Positions 21,426-52,954 of a stretch of 64,000 nucleotides of DNA are shown here, piece after piece. Origin of the DNA: Leptotrichia buccalis C-1013-b. Its GTDB lineage: Bacteria > Fusobacteriota > Fusobacteriia > Fusobacteriales > Leptotrichiaceae. The notes below the pieces were generated by a model, which worked only from the letters and a program-made list of their open reading frames with translations, did no database searches and was not told the DNA's origin. The stretch spans positions 434,001-498,000 of the forward strand of contig NC_013192.1 of NCBI RefSeq assembly GCF_000023905.1, written 5' to 3'. The number at the start of each line of letters is the position of its first letter. The first letter of the stretch is position 1. Both the position numbers and the translations under genes were made by a program.

Positions 21426-22202
21426 TTATCGCTCCTTTTCAATTTCAGACAGATTTCCATTATTTTGAGTTGCTTTTTTACTCTTATATGTTTTTTCAAT
21501 ATTTTCAGGAGTAAAAATTTCTTCCACAGGTCCAGAAGCTATAACAGACACATTTATAAATGTCACATAATCAAAATAATCCTTTACCGTCTGCAAATCA
21601 TGATGAACAGCAATTACAGTTTTTTTCTCATCTCGCAATTTTTTTAAAATATTTACAATAGATTTTTCCGTTTTACTGTCGACACCTTGAAACGGCTCGT
21701 CCATAAAATATATTTCAGCATCCTGCACTAATGCCCGTGCCAAAAACACCCTTTGCTGTTGTCCCCCTGACAGCTGGCTTATCTGTCTGTCTGAAAACTC
21801 ATCCATTTCCACCTTATGAATTGCTTCTTTCGTCTTTTCCTTATCAATTTTTCTAACTTTCTTTAACCACCCGACTTTTCCATAACGCCCCATTTCCACA
21901 ACATCAAATACAGTAGTGGGAAAATCCCAGTCAACACTTCCTCTTTGTGGTACATAAGCTATCTTATCCCGCACTTTGCTATATTTTTCATCATAAAATT
22001 TTACTTCTCCAGTAACAGGCTTTAGCAAATCAAGCATTGCTTTAATTAAAGTAGATTTTCCAGCCCCATTCGGGCCTACTATAGCCATAAGAATCCCTTT
22101 TTTAATATCAAGCTCAACATCCCATAAAACAGGTTTATCCTCATAAGCTATCGTCAAATCTTCAACTCTTATAATAATATCATCAGAAACATTTTGATTC
22201 AT
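21426..22202 (-). CDS. Metal ABC transporter ATP-binding protein
   Basis: ATPase subunit (258 residues) that powers the metal importer. Walker A is GPNGAGKST (~43-51), the signature is LSGGQQQR, Walker B is IYFMDEP, and the switch histidine follows in AVHHDLQTV. The Q-loop is AYVPQRGSVDWDFP, typical of Mn/Zn transporters. An AGGAG site precedes the ATG. It is separated from the upstream binding-protein gene by 152 bp containing a long hairpin, which may set the relative expression levels. Confidence 0.95.
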   Translation of the reverse strand: MNQNVSDDIIIRVEDLTIAYEDKPVLWDVELDIKKGILMAIVGPNGAGKSTLIKAMLDLLKPVTGEVKFYDEKYSKVRDKIAYVPQRGSVDWDFPTTVFDVVEMGRYGKVGWLKKVRKIDKEKTKEAIHKVEMDEFSDRQISQLSGGQQQRVFLARALVQDAEIYFMDEPFQGVDSKTEKSIVNILKKLRDEKKTVIAVHHDLQTVKDYFDYVTFINVSVIASGPVEEIFTPENIEKTYKSKKATQNNGNLSEIEKER

Positions 22203-48138: not shown

Positions 48139-48253
48139 GTTTGGTGATGTTAGCAGCAGGGATACACCCGGTTACATTTCGAACCCGGCAGTTAAGTCTG
48201 TTTACGCCTAAAATACTTGGATTCGTCCCGGGAAAATAGGTAGTTGCCAAACT
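48139..48253 (+). rRNA. rrf: 5S ribosomal RNA
   Basis: GTTTGGTGATG ... GTAGTTGCCAAAC: the two ends are complementary (stem I), and the middle has CACCCGGTTACATTTCGAAC followed by GGCAGTTAAG, the usual 5S core. It lies 60 bp after 23S. Confidence 0.93.
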
Positions 48254-48344: not shown

Positions 48345-48468
48345 TTTTTTTTAATTTTTCTTTCCTGTAATTTCACTTCATAGCATATCATTTACAGTTA
48401 GTTATTTTTTAAATAGTTACTATCAAAAAAAGAAAAGTAAATTTATGTTTTTTTATACATAATGATTA

Positions 48469-48617
48469 GGCTGTGTGTGAAAACTTGAAATCTATGTTAT
48501 TTTTAATGTTTTTTTGATTTTATAAATTTACAAATCACGATAAAATCTGTGTTTATTATTTTGATTTTAGAAAAATTTGTTAAAAATTCATCATTTTTAG
48601 AGTTTTCAGACACGCCC
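48469..48617. mobile_element. MITE copy 1 (TA-flanked, ~149 bp)
   Basis: Ends GGCTGTGTGTGAAAACT and AGTTTTCAGACACGCCC are terminal inverted repeats of ~17 bp, bordered on each side by TA (48467-48468 and 48618-48619). The interior is about 80-90% identical to copy 2 at 52744-52894 and has no coding capacity. A TA target duplication points to an IS630/Tc1-mariner-type source. The DNA from 48620 to 49050 holds only scraps of old coding sequence (e.g. LKEATRKWIELIPKKLDIKF in one frame). Confidence 0.85.
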
Positions 48618-49061
48618 TAAGTGAATATTTGATGAATTTTAAAAGAAGCGACGAGAAAATGGATTGAATTGATCCCTAAAAAGTTAGACATAAAATTTAA
48701 TTAGTCAGCAATGGGAGTTAATCCTTTTGATTTTTCTCTTATTCAAAAATATGGTTGATAAAATGATTGAAAAAATATTAATAATACTTTCTAAGAGATG
48801 GATACCTGGTAAAATTTACAGACAAAAAAAGAGAAGAAATTATCTCAAAAGATTTCTACTTCTGCTTCTGAAAGTATCAATTGTTTTTTTAAACTTGTTG
48901 GAAAACTGTAATATGATTAATATGATTTTTTAGAATGAATGATAAAAAAGATGCTCATAAGGTTGAATATAAAAGATAAAACTAGAGTTGAGTATATCTA
49001 AACTTGGGATTTTTTATTTCCTTTATTTAAGTATACTCAGTAATATAGGACTTTAAATAGT

Positions 49062-49439
49062 TTATTTGTTTTTTTTAAATAGATTAAATATGTTTTTCAT
49101 GGACAATAAAGGCTTATTTCGTACGATTTTTTCATTTCCTAAGAAATCACGCATGATTTTTAACGTCTTTCCAGCATTTTTTACAACAAAATTATATGTT
49201 CCAGCATTTTTTGTATCTATGAAAAAACCACGAATATACTTGTCTTTGAAAAAAAGCTGAGCTCTTACTCTTATAATCTCATTCCAAGGGATTTGGATAT
49301 AATCTTCAGGATTACGACTGTTATAAAATTCAAAAGCATTGTTTCCTACAAGAATATTTCCATTTTTATTGCCAAACATTCCATTTAATGTGTTTGCTTT
49401 TGTTGTATACAGAACTTTTGTATTCATTGAAATAGCCAA
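49062..49439 (-). CDS. DUF956 family protein (mannose PTS-associated)
   Basis: 125 residues, soluble. DUF956 proteins are almost always encoded beside mannose-family PTS genes, as here (last gene after IID), and some act as regulators of the Man PTS (ManO in lactic acid bacteria). Recognisable pieces: MNTKVLYTTKANTLNGMFGN, GNNAFEFYN, and IQIPWNEIIRVRAQ. A terminator lies between IID and this gene, so its expression may be lower than that of the PTS or driven separately. Confidence 0.88.
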   Translation of the reverse strand: MAISMNTKVLYTTKANTLNGMFGNKNGNILVGNNAFEFYNSRNPEDYIQIPWNEIIRVRAQLFFKDKYIRGFFIDTKNAGTYNFVVKNAGKTLKIMRDFLGNEKIVRNKPLLSMKNIFNLFKKNK

Positions 49440-49473
49440 TTTTATTCCTCATTTCTTTTTCATTTTTTTATTA

Positions 49474-49511
49474 GAAAAAAAGCTGGATTTTTAATTCCAA
49501 CTTCTTTTTTT
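49474..49511 (-). terminator. Terminator between PTS IID and DUF956 gene
   Basis: On the minus strand AAGTTGGA ... TCCAGCTT with a single mismatch, then seven T. It may allow partial read-through into the DUF956 gene. Confidence 0.65.
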
Positions 49512-49532
49512 GTATAAAATCATTATAGTTGT

Positions 49533-50450
49533 TTAAAATATTCCAACTAAGTGTCCTAAAATTCCCACTGCAAATAATCCAAATATAATTACAATTGGAC
49601 TTACTTTTCTCTTAAGCAACCACATACATAGGAAAGTCAATAGTAAAGCCGCTAATCCTGGTACTAGTTGATTTAAGTTATCTTGTAAAGTTGTTACTTT
49701 TTCTGGAGAAAGCGATAGTCCTTTTGCTACATCTCCAAGAATTTTTTGTAACTGAGTACCGTCTACAGAACCTTTTGGAAATTCTATATAAGCCCCTTTT
49801 GCTAAAGGAACTTTTGATACAACCATTGGGAAATTAATTGTTGTCCAACGTTGAACTAGTATTCCCATAACGAACATTCCTAAAATGGATGCTCCTTTAG
49901 TAATAGTTTGTAATAAACCACCTGATAAGTCTTTTGTAATTTCAGCACCTTTTTGGTAACCAAATTCTTGAGTATACCATAAGAAAGCCACACGAATTAC
50001 ATTCCATACAATGAAGAAAAATAAAGGAGCTATAAGTGATCCATCTGCCGCCAATGAAGCCGCAATTGCTCCTAAAATTGGACGTACTGTAAACCAGAAT
50101 ACTGGATCTCCAATTCCTGCAAGTGGTCCCATCATTCCAACTTTTACCCCTTGGATAGCCGCATCATCAACTGGAGCCCCATTAGCTCTTTCTTCTTCCA
50201 GAGCTAAAGTTACTCCTAAAATAGGCGCGGCAATATATGGGTGAGTATTAAAGAATTCCATATGTCTTTTTAAAGCTGCTGAAGCATCATCTTTATTTGG
50301 ATATAGTTTTTTTAATGCAGGAATTATAGCGTAAGCCCATCCTCCATTTTGCATACGTTCATAGTTCCAAGAACCTTGAAGAAATTGTGAACGTAACATT
50401 ATATTAAAACGATCTGATTTTTCTAATTTTACTTTCTTATTTTCTGCCAT
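49533..50450 (-). CDS. manZ: Mannose-family PTS component IID
   Basis: Membrane subunit of the mannose/glucose/glucosamine PTS, 305 residues. Family features are LRSQFLQGSWNYERMQNGGW near the N-terminus, GDPVFWFTVRPILGAIAASLA (~115-135), and hydrophobic helices to the C-terminal VGILGHLVGIF. It works together with IIC in sugar translocation. GGAGGAATACG lies before the ATG, 18 bp after IIC. Confidence 0.95.
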   Translation of the reverse strand: MAENKKVKLEKSDRFNIMLRSQFLQGSWNYERMQNGGWAYAIIPALKKLYPNKDDASAALKRHMEFFNTHPYIAAPILGVTLALEEERANGAPVDDAAIQGVKVGMMGPLAGIGDPVFWFTVRPILGAIAASLAADGSLIAPLFFFIVWNVIRVAFLWYTQEFGYQKGAEITKDLSGGLLQTITKGASILGMFVMGILVQRWTTINFPMVVSKVPLAKGAYIEFPKGSVDGTQLQKILGDVAKGLSLSPEKVTTLQDNLNQLVPGLAALLLTFLCMWLLKRKVSPIVIIFGLFAVGILGHLVGIF

Positions 50451-50468
50451 TTCGTATTCCTCCTTTAA

Positions 50469-51275
50469 TTAATAGTCATTTAAAATGTCACCTAACGGAT
50501 CTCCAGAAGAAGATGCTCCTCCGTCTCCTCCACCGTTACCTTTGTTGTTTGTAACATTTAAGTAGATAATAGCTGCAGCAACACCAATAATTCCTGTAGC
50601 AATTAATGTAAGCTCTTTTACTGGTGCTAATGCAAAACCTAGGAAGAAGAATGGCCATACTTCTTTAGTTGCCATTAAGTTAATAACCATTGCATATCCT
50701 ACTGCTACAACGAATCCACCACCAATACTCATTCCCTTAGTAAACCATTCTGGCAGTGCTCCTAGAGCTCCTTGGATAATAGAAGGATCAAGAAATACTA
50801 ATAAAAGAGCAGGTATCACGATACGTAAACCTTGACACGCAAGTGCTATCATATGCCATAATTCAACACCTTTAAAGTTACCTTTTTCTGCTTCTCTATC
50901 AGCTTGGTGAACAATAACTACTGATAAAGTTCGAACAACCATAGTTAAAACTAGTCCCGCAGTTGCAAGAGCGACAGCTGTTCCAATTACGGTACCTTGA
51001 TCTTTAAAATTATTTTTTGCAAAAATTATAGCTGAAGCTACAGAAGCAAGAGCCGCATCAGGCGCAACAGCCGCTCCTACATTTGCCCAACCTAAAGCCA
51101 TTAATTGTAAAACTCCACCTAGCATAACACATTCTTTTATGTGCCCTGTCGCAATTCCAATTAACGAACATGCAATAATTGGCTGATGGAATTGGAACTG
51201 ATCAAGGATTCCTTCCATTCCTGCTAGAAATGCGACGATTAATATTAAAATAATTGATAAAATATTAAAATCCAT
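50469..51275 (-). CDS. manY: Mannose-family PTS component IIC
   Basis: Membrane translocation subunit, 268 residues. Starts MDFNILSIILILIVAFLAGMEGILDQFQFHQP, followed by GLALIG-like helices and GGVLQLMALGWANVGAAVAPD, both typical of the family. The C-terminal tail is Gly/Asn/Asp-rich (GNGGGDGGASSSGD), longer and more polar than in E. coli ManY. A TTAGGAGG ribosome-binding site is seen. Second gene of the operon. Confidence 0.95.
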   Translation of the reverse strand: MDFNILSIILILIVAFLAGMEGILDQFQFHQPIIACSLIGIATGHIKECVMLGGVLQLMALGWANVGAAVAPDAALASVASAIIFAKNNFKDQGTVIGTAVALATAGLVLTMVVRTLSVVIVHQADREAEKGNFKGVELWHMIALACQGLRIVIPALLLVFLDPSIIQGALGALPEWFTKGMSIGGGFVVAVGYAMVINLMATKEVWPFFFLGFALAPVKELTLIATGIIGVAAAIIYLNVTNNKGNGGGDGGASSSGDPLGDILNDY

Positions 51276-51290
51276 AATAACCTCCTAAAA

Positions 51291-52280
51291 TTAAAGTTTT
51301 AATCCTTCGTTTTGTTTTTCTGAAATTAGTTTAAATAAGTCTGCTCTCTTGTCAGCAGCAACTTTTCTTACATCAAATTGAACACCTAAATCTCTAAGTT
51401 TCTTATAAGTGTCAACATCATTTTGATCCATTGAAAGTACATTATTTACCATAACTTTTCCAACAGTATGTGCCATTGAACCTACATTTAATTCCTTGAT
51501 TTCTACACCTCTTTCAATTACATAAAGTGCATCCTGAGGGTTTTCAAATAGCAATAATGCTTTTGTATTTCCGAATCTTGGATCTTTTGAAACTTCTACT
51601 AATTTGTCAAGCGGAATAACATGTGCACGTACACCTGGAGGTGCTGCCTGCTCGATTAATTTTTTACGTAGTTCATCTTTTGAAACTGTGTCTGAAACAA
51701 CAATAATTCTGTTTGGATTAGTTGCTTTTGTCCAGCTTGTTGCTACTTGTCCATGTAATAGACGAGTATCAATACGTGCTAATACAAATTTAATTTTTCC
51801 ATCTCCAATAACTGTTCCTTCTGGAATGGCACCTTTAGGTGTATCATCCTGTGCTACAGCTTTTGGACCTTCATCTTTAGGTTGCAGACTTTCTGGACGA
51901 ACTCTGATTTGATCTTTTCCTTCTGGAACAATAGCTTCTGCTACTTCGTGAGCTGTTTCCATATCTTCTCTTTCTGATAAGGCAGCTAGAAGCATTGGTA
52001 AATTAAGTCCTGCAACAATAGCTCTTGTTTCAGGTGCTTCTTCAAAGAAACGGTTTGACTGATTAAAAGGACTTCCTCCCCATAAATCAACAATAAATAG
52101 AACTTCTTCAGTTCCTAATTTTGTAATGGCATCCTGAATTTTTTTGTATAAATCATCAGGACCTTCACTTGGCATAAAGACAACTGATTCAAGTGCTTCT
52201 GTTTCACCTAGAATCATTGAAGCTGACTGTTTTATACCAGCTGCGAATTCACCGTGACTTGCAATGATAATTCCTACCAT
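51291..52280 (-). CDS. manX: Mannose-family PTS component IIAB
   Basis: Fused phosphotransfer protein, 329 residues. It takes phosphate from HPr onto H9 of the IIA domain (IIASHGEFAAG) and passes it to H176 of the IIB domain (RIDTRLLHGQVA), from which the sugar is phosphorylated. The linker (~118-160) is rich in Lys, Pro and Asp. The frame is open to 52319, but the ATG at 52280 is preferred because GAAGGAGG lies 6-13 bases before it and because the protein then begins with the conserved MVGIIIASHG. First gene of the IIAB-IIC-IID operon. Confidence 0.96.
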   Translation of the reverse strand: MVGIIIASHGEFAAGIKQSASMILGETEALESVVFMPSEGPDDLYKKIQDAITKLGTEEVLFIVDLWGGSPFNQSNRFFEEAPETRAIVAGLNLPMLLAALSEREDMETAHEVAEAIVPEGKDQIRVRPESLQPKDEGPKAVAQDDTPKGAIPEGTVIGDGKIKFVLARIDTRLLHGQVATSWTKATNPNRIIVVSDTVSKDELRKKLIEQAAPPGVRAHVIPLDKLVEVSKDPRFGNTKALLLFENPQDALYVIERGVEIKELNVGSMAHTVGKVMVNNVLSMDQNDVDTYKKLRDLGVQFDVRKVAADKRADLFKLISEKQNEGLKL

Positions 52281-52391
52281 TTTGAACCTCCTTCTAAATA
52301 AAATATTTTTTTTATTCACTTATAATTTTAATTTTTTCATAAATTTTAAGGACTTTTTATAAAAATTAAAAATGAATAATCTCATAGTATA

Positions 52392-52544: not shown

Positions 52545-52743
52545 GATAATAAATATCTTTTAAAAAGAAATAATTATGAAATTCTGATTTTATTAAAAAA
52601 AACAGTTATCGCTGCATTAGATGATTTAATTGGAGCCTTCTATAAGAAGGAATCTTTTCATGAAGATAAACTTGTAATATTAAAGTTATTTGAAGGGAAA
52701 ATTTTGAAAAATAGATTTGTTTTTAAATATTCTGAATTATATA
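52545..52743 (+). pseudogene. Start-less coding remnant ending in the MITE
   Basis: An open frame without a start codon reads KTVIAALDDLIGAFYKKESF, then LVILKLFEGKILK and VFKYSELY, and runs straight into MITE copy 2. Well-formed sequence, family not recognised. Probably the middle of a former gene, cut by the MITE insertion. Confidence 0.4.
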
Positions 52744-52894
52744 GGCTGTGTCTGAAAACTCAAAATCTATGTTATTTTTAATGTTTTTTTGATTTTACAA
52801 ATTATACAAATTACGATAAAATCAATGTTTATTATTTTTGATTTTCGAAAAATTTGTTAAAAATTCATTATTTTGATAGTTTTCAGACACACCC
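52744..52894. mobile_element. MITE copy 2 (TA-flanked, ~151 bp)
   Basis: GGCTGTGTCTGAAAACT at one end and AGTTTTCAGACACACCC at the other (17-bp inverted repeats with one mismatch), TA on both sides (52742-52743 and 52895-52896). The interior contains CTATGTTATTTTTAATGTTT and ATTTGTTAAAAATTCAT, shared with copy 1. No transposase. Confidence 0.88.
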
Positions 52895-52954
52895 TAATAA
52901 AAAAAAAACTATTTTATAAAAATAAAATAGTAATATGAGTGATTTTTATGAAAT

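Follow-up and report, generated by a model that had tools for sequence, protein, structure and literature searches.

A TA-flanked MITE family in Leptotrichia buccalis and its probable IS5-family mobilising element

Two short repeated elements flank a PTS locus

The L. buccalis C-1013-b genome comprises 2,465,610 bp (PMC3035221). Our genome-wide counts refer to this one 2,465,610-bp contig, and the window, i.e. the whole stretch of 64,000 nucleotides that was analysed, represents its positions 434001 to 498000. Between positions 48140 and 53029 of the window, an rRNA operon, a PTS locus, a tRNA-Thr gene and iscS-side genes are adjacent; these are separated or reordered in Leptotrichia relatives. 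The PTS locus (49062..52319, minus strand) is of the mannose family and codes for EIIAB, with EIIA-man and PTSIIB_sorb domains in one protein, EIIC (EII-Sor), EIID (EIID-AGA) and a separate DUF956 protein, in agreement with the first-pass annotation, which had described it as complete.

The locus lies between two elements in the same orientation. Copy 1 (149 bp, 48469..48617, plus strand) is flanked by TA dinucleotides, its presumed target duplications, at 48467..48468 and 48618..48619, and it is bounded by 17-bp terminal inverted repeats, GGCTGTGTGTGAAAACT on the left (48469..48485, plus strand) and GGGCGTGTCTGAAAACT on the right (48601..48617, minus strand). Copy 2 (151 bp, 52744..52894, plus strand) has its TA dinucleotides at 52742..52743 and 52895..52896 and its terminal repeats at 52744..52760 (plus strand) and 52878..52894 (minus strand). 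The first-pass annotation was thus exact as to coordinates, lengths and TA flanks of both copies. The 17-bp inverted ends that it reported are also present, but they are imperfect, with 3 mismatches in 17 positions between left and right for copy 1 and 1 in 17 for copy 2. The right end of copy 2 is the only one that agrees exactly with the 17-mer end sequence that it gave; with up to three mismatches allowed, the whole window contains five matches versus 0.12 expected. An isolated match to the ends (3 mismatches), with no second end nearby, is found at window positions 21783-21799. The two copies are 91% identical, with ~9% of positions differing, and they depart from the family consensus by 8 (copy 1) and 7 (copy 2) differences.

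A MITE family dispersed in the genome

The window pair belongs to a family with 27 complete and 2 truncated copies in the whole genome, of which 25 complete and both truncated ones lie beyond the window. Complete copies span 131-152 bp and carry inverted ends (GGCTGTGTCTGAAAACT on the left and GGGCGTGTCTGAAAACT on the right for the family). Each of the 27 is bordered by TA left and right; the frequency of this dinucleotide in the MITE flanks is 0.115 (11.5%). Complete copies devoid of the TA duplication, which according to the first-pass annotation would speak against its proposal, are thus absent from the genome. The copies sit in gaps between ORFs, with a few mechanical ORF calls extending slightly into a copy end. 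The consensus harbours no long ORF, its reading frames being closed or short, and a MITE-encoded peptide was rejected on that ground.

Most copies are close to the consensus, with 12 differences or fewer in 21 of the 27 and a maximum of 25. Four pairs of identical copies are found at unlinked sites (980414/820212, 195907/111337, 2126798/1271986 and 389508/38674).

Empty sites and insertion history

The species comparison covered 13 Leptotrichia genomes, including that of the window (G000). For six MITE sites, the flanks were joined with one TA kept and searched for in related species, and three of these queries gave unbroken matches. The 50629 site is empty in G004 (98% over 300/300 ungapped bases), the 1648849 site in G003, G001, G008 and G010 (92-95%, two small gaps), and the 820212 site in G010, G003, G008 and G001 (88-89%). 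A few junction bases have diverged at the last of these, and judging from the alignments the absence of the insert is clearer there than the exact TA. The extra sequence of a filled site relative to an empty one is the MITE plus one TA. The TA target duplication claimed in the first-pass annotation has thus held, on the basis of both TA/TA at the 27 copies and the empty sites in relatives. The 184445 copy occupies the same position in G004 and is among the most diverged; it is an old copy shared with that genome.

Insertion with duplication of TA is thus established for the family from three other copies, and the window copies probably arose in the same manner. The check for empty sites suggested in the first-pass annotation was successful for those three and yielded none for the window pair, because the flanks of the latter are rearranged in the relatives. 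For copy 2, alignment with these genomes is confined to the tRNA-Thr side and begins 2-6 bases past the right end; its left flank does not align. Copy 1 comes after the rRNA operon and a tRNA-Asn gene, whose downstream neighbour varies among species.

Instead of being mobile, the element might conceivably be a selected structured RNA or regulatory sequence, since a single strand forms a long hairpin (z -5.8). However, long inverted arms produce such a fold in any element of this sort. Among 23 distinct MITE copies, 24 broken pair cells were counted versus 5 double changes, and no Rfam family matches the MITE. The absence of a long ORF also counts against this explanation, and the tested sites are mostly species-specific, with empty counterparts. 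A non-coding RNA or Rfam family was rejected given the lack of an Rfam match and the little covariation. A structured interior under selection, the other outcome that the first-pass annotation had considered damaging to its proposal, thus did not materialize, and we regard it as very unlikely.

The PTS locus is probably a bystander

Because the PTS genes are flanked by two like-oriented copies, and because the neighbours of these genes differ in several relatives, the pair could be thought to form a composite transposon with the PTS locus as its cargo. Several observations argue otherwise. With 29 random insertions, 1.4 neighbouring pairs are expected within 4.3 kb, and one was seen. For pairs within 7 kb, five were seen versus 2.2 expected for 29 insertions (P 0.06), which indicates at most a weak tendency to cluster. 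The gene to the right of the PTS locus in the window also comes next to it in G012, where neither a MITE nor tRNA-Thr intervenes. No relative that was read has MITEs around the PTS genes. An empty composite site should bring the rRNA operon close to tRNA-Thr, and none of these relatives shows that arrangement. Furthermore, the ~9% divergence between the copies does not fit a recent matched pair. With chance spacing, the G012 arrangement and relatives devoid of MITEs at the PTS locus, a composite transposon is thus not supported, and we hold it to be highly unlikely. Any meaning of the bracketing described in the first-pass annotation is likewise unsupported, as chance alone predicts a pair this close, and the position of the PTS locus between two MITEs is best taken as a coincidence.

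A resident IS5-family element is the candidate parent

The first-pass annotation had proposed that a parent element with the same termini resides elsewhere in the genome. A genome search identified a likely one, a 945-bp IS of the IS5 family (IS427 type) with TA at both ends. Of its six full-length copies, which are all TA-flanked and 98-100% identical, five measure 945 bp and one 935 bp; one further copy is degraded. Matches to the ends only, paired ~924 bp apart, are the two ends of this IS. Its terminal repeats are 44 bp long and begin with GGGCGTGTCTGAAAACT / GGGCGTGTCTGAAAACTCAAAATCAAT.... Copies 1010256 and 1312424 are identical, and in copy 2288241 ORF A is cut short by the loss of 10 bp.

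ORF A codes for 114 residues and matches Pfam DUF4096, and ORF B is an open frame of 148 residues that matches Pfam DDE_Tnp_1. Both match NCBIfam NF033580 (transpos_IS5_3) above cutoff (E 1e-38 and 7e-44) and cover consecutive parts of the profile. The IS5 motif Y-(2)-R-(3)-E-(6)-K can be read in ORF B as YKERHLVECFFNKLK. ORF B was read in four IS copies, 2288241 among them. In each, it is immediately preceded by a stop and opens at an A6 run, its frame being -1 with respect to that of ORF A. The two are presumably fused by a -1 frameshift at the A-run.

Elements of the IS630 and Tc1/mariner types typically duplicate TA, and the first-pass annotation had favoured a parent of that type on account of the ends. 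However, the sole element found in the genome with MITE ends codes for an IS5-family, IS427-like transposase, and no IS630 type is among the profile matches listed for it. Moreover, 2-bp duplications are also known in IS5 elements of the IS427 group, which can have two overlapping ORFs and a frameshift motif (PMC3281130). The resident element has an IS5-type DDE transposase, two ORFs in a frameshift relation and, from the TA flanks of its six full-length copies, an apparent 2-bp target duplication. We therefore assigned it to IS5/IS427 rather than to IS630. An IS630 parent was rejected for the resident element, and the origin of the MITE from an IS630/Tc1-mariner-type element is extremely unlikely.

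Relation between the MITE and the IS across Leptotrichia

The MITE and the IS share the starting sequence GG..GTGTCTGAAAACT, and their similarity extends inwards, with 86% identity over 51 bp at the left MITE end and 85% over 38-40 bp at the right one. The elements are thus short, have terminal inverted repeats and no transposase gene, occur as many dispersed copies with TA duplication and, for three other copies, empty sites, and have ends in common with an autonomous element of the same genome, as is characteristic of MITEs. The MITE interior (approximately positions 56-112) has no match to the present IS, so that a straightforward internal deletion of the latter does not account for the MITE. 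A sister IS that has since been lost is a possible source.

Among the 13 genomes, a complete transposase frame was found only in G000, where the MITE is abundant. Remnants are present in two relatives, as a broken relative in G010 and a fragment in G012. Near-full-length MITEs number 27 in G000 and 0-6 in the 12 other species: six in G001, three each in G002 and G010, two each in G003 and G008, one each in G004, G006, G007 and G011, and none in G005, G009 and G012. Of the nine relatives with at least one near-complete MITE, G010 alone has a detectable ORF B homologue. MITE copy number is thus correlated with the presence of an intact transposase, in keeping with the resident IS mobilising the MITE in trans. 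A search for the MITE/IS end pattern among genome contigs, a set that may not include the window's own genome, matched one record, from L. hongkongensis, and viral contigs gave no match.

Other repeats with related ends were also noticed. In L. buccalis, more diverged MITE-like ends flank a gene for a 183-residue NAD(P)H-oxidoreductase-like protein (G000, contig C1, 1539800-1541700), and similar end matches lie ~700 bp apart in G003 and G002. These possibly represent a second, older related repeat family. Stretches of ~90 bp, shorter than the MITE and with MITE ends in inverted orientation, occur in G004 (contig C24) and G001 (contig C1, 1545700-1547000); they look like fold-back derivatives.

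Altogether, the window pair very probably represents copies of a non-autonomous Leptotrichia MITE that a resident IS5-family (IS427-type) element mobilises through its transposase, with the PTS locus as a bystander. The transposase would be a D-D-E enzyme made from the two ORFs, presumably joined by the -1 frameshift at the A-run. It would recognise in trans the MITE ends, in which homology to the 945-bp IS runs for ~50 bp on the left, and would insert the MITE at TA in AT-rich intergenic DNA, thereby duplicating TA. We infer that mobilisation in trans is the most likely mode of spread. A tentative proposal, to which we give somewhat less than an even chance, is that the MITE had its origin in a lost sister IS and that a diverged transposase of the IS5 type now cross-mobilises it. 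If true, it would explain why a MITE burst took place in L. buccalis alone and why the other Leptotrichia have few, old copies.

Comparison with known systems

Like IS427-group IS5 elements such as IS1248, the parent IS has two ORFs in different frames that would yield a fused D-D-E transposase, is smaller than 1 kb and has an apparent 2-bp target duplication (PMC3281130). In contrast, its terminal repeats measure 44 bp versus about 13-21 in that group (PMC3281130), and its host is Leptotrichia. The MITE, for its part, differs from these elements by the absence of a transposase. A literature search, with most subscription papers outside its reach, found no description of a Leptotrichia MITE, and a review (PMC10969869) mentions neither Leptotrichia nor IS427. 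The parent IS may already be catalogued. The MITE appears to be a new family of a well-known kind, undescribed in Fusobacteria, and it provides a case in that phylum of a MITE family paired with its probable autonomous parent. It leaves the general understanding of MITEs unchanged, and its insertions provide markers with which strains and species of an oral genus can be compared.

The Correia elements, or NEMIS, of Neisseria are ~100-155 bp long, with long imperfect inverted arms, TA duplication and many intergenic copies. The Leptotrichia MITE resembles them in all these respects, but its end sequence is unrelated and its copies are far fewer. The RUP elements of Streptococcus pneumoniae are short and non-autonomous and duplicate TA, and a resident IS of the IS630 type is believed to mobilise them in trans. 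The Leptotrichia MITE is likewise short and non-autonomous, with TA duplication and a resident IS as its presumed mobiliser, but the linked IS is of the IS5 type, whereas that of RUP is of the IS630 type.
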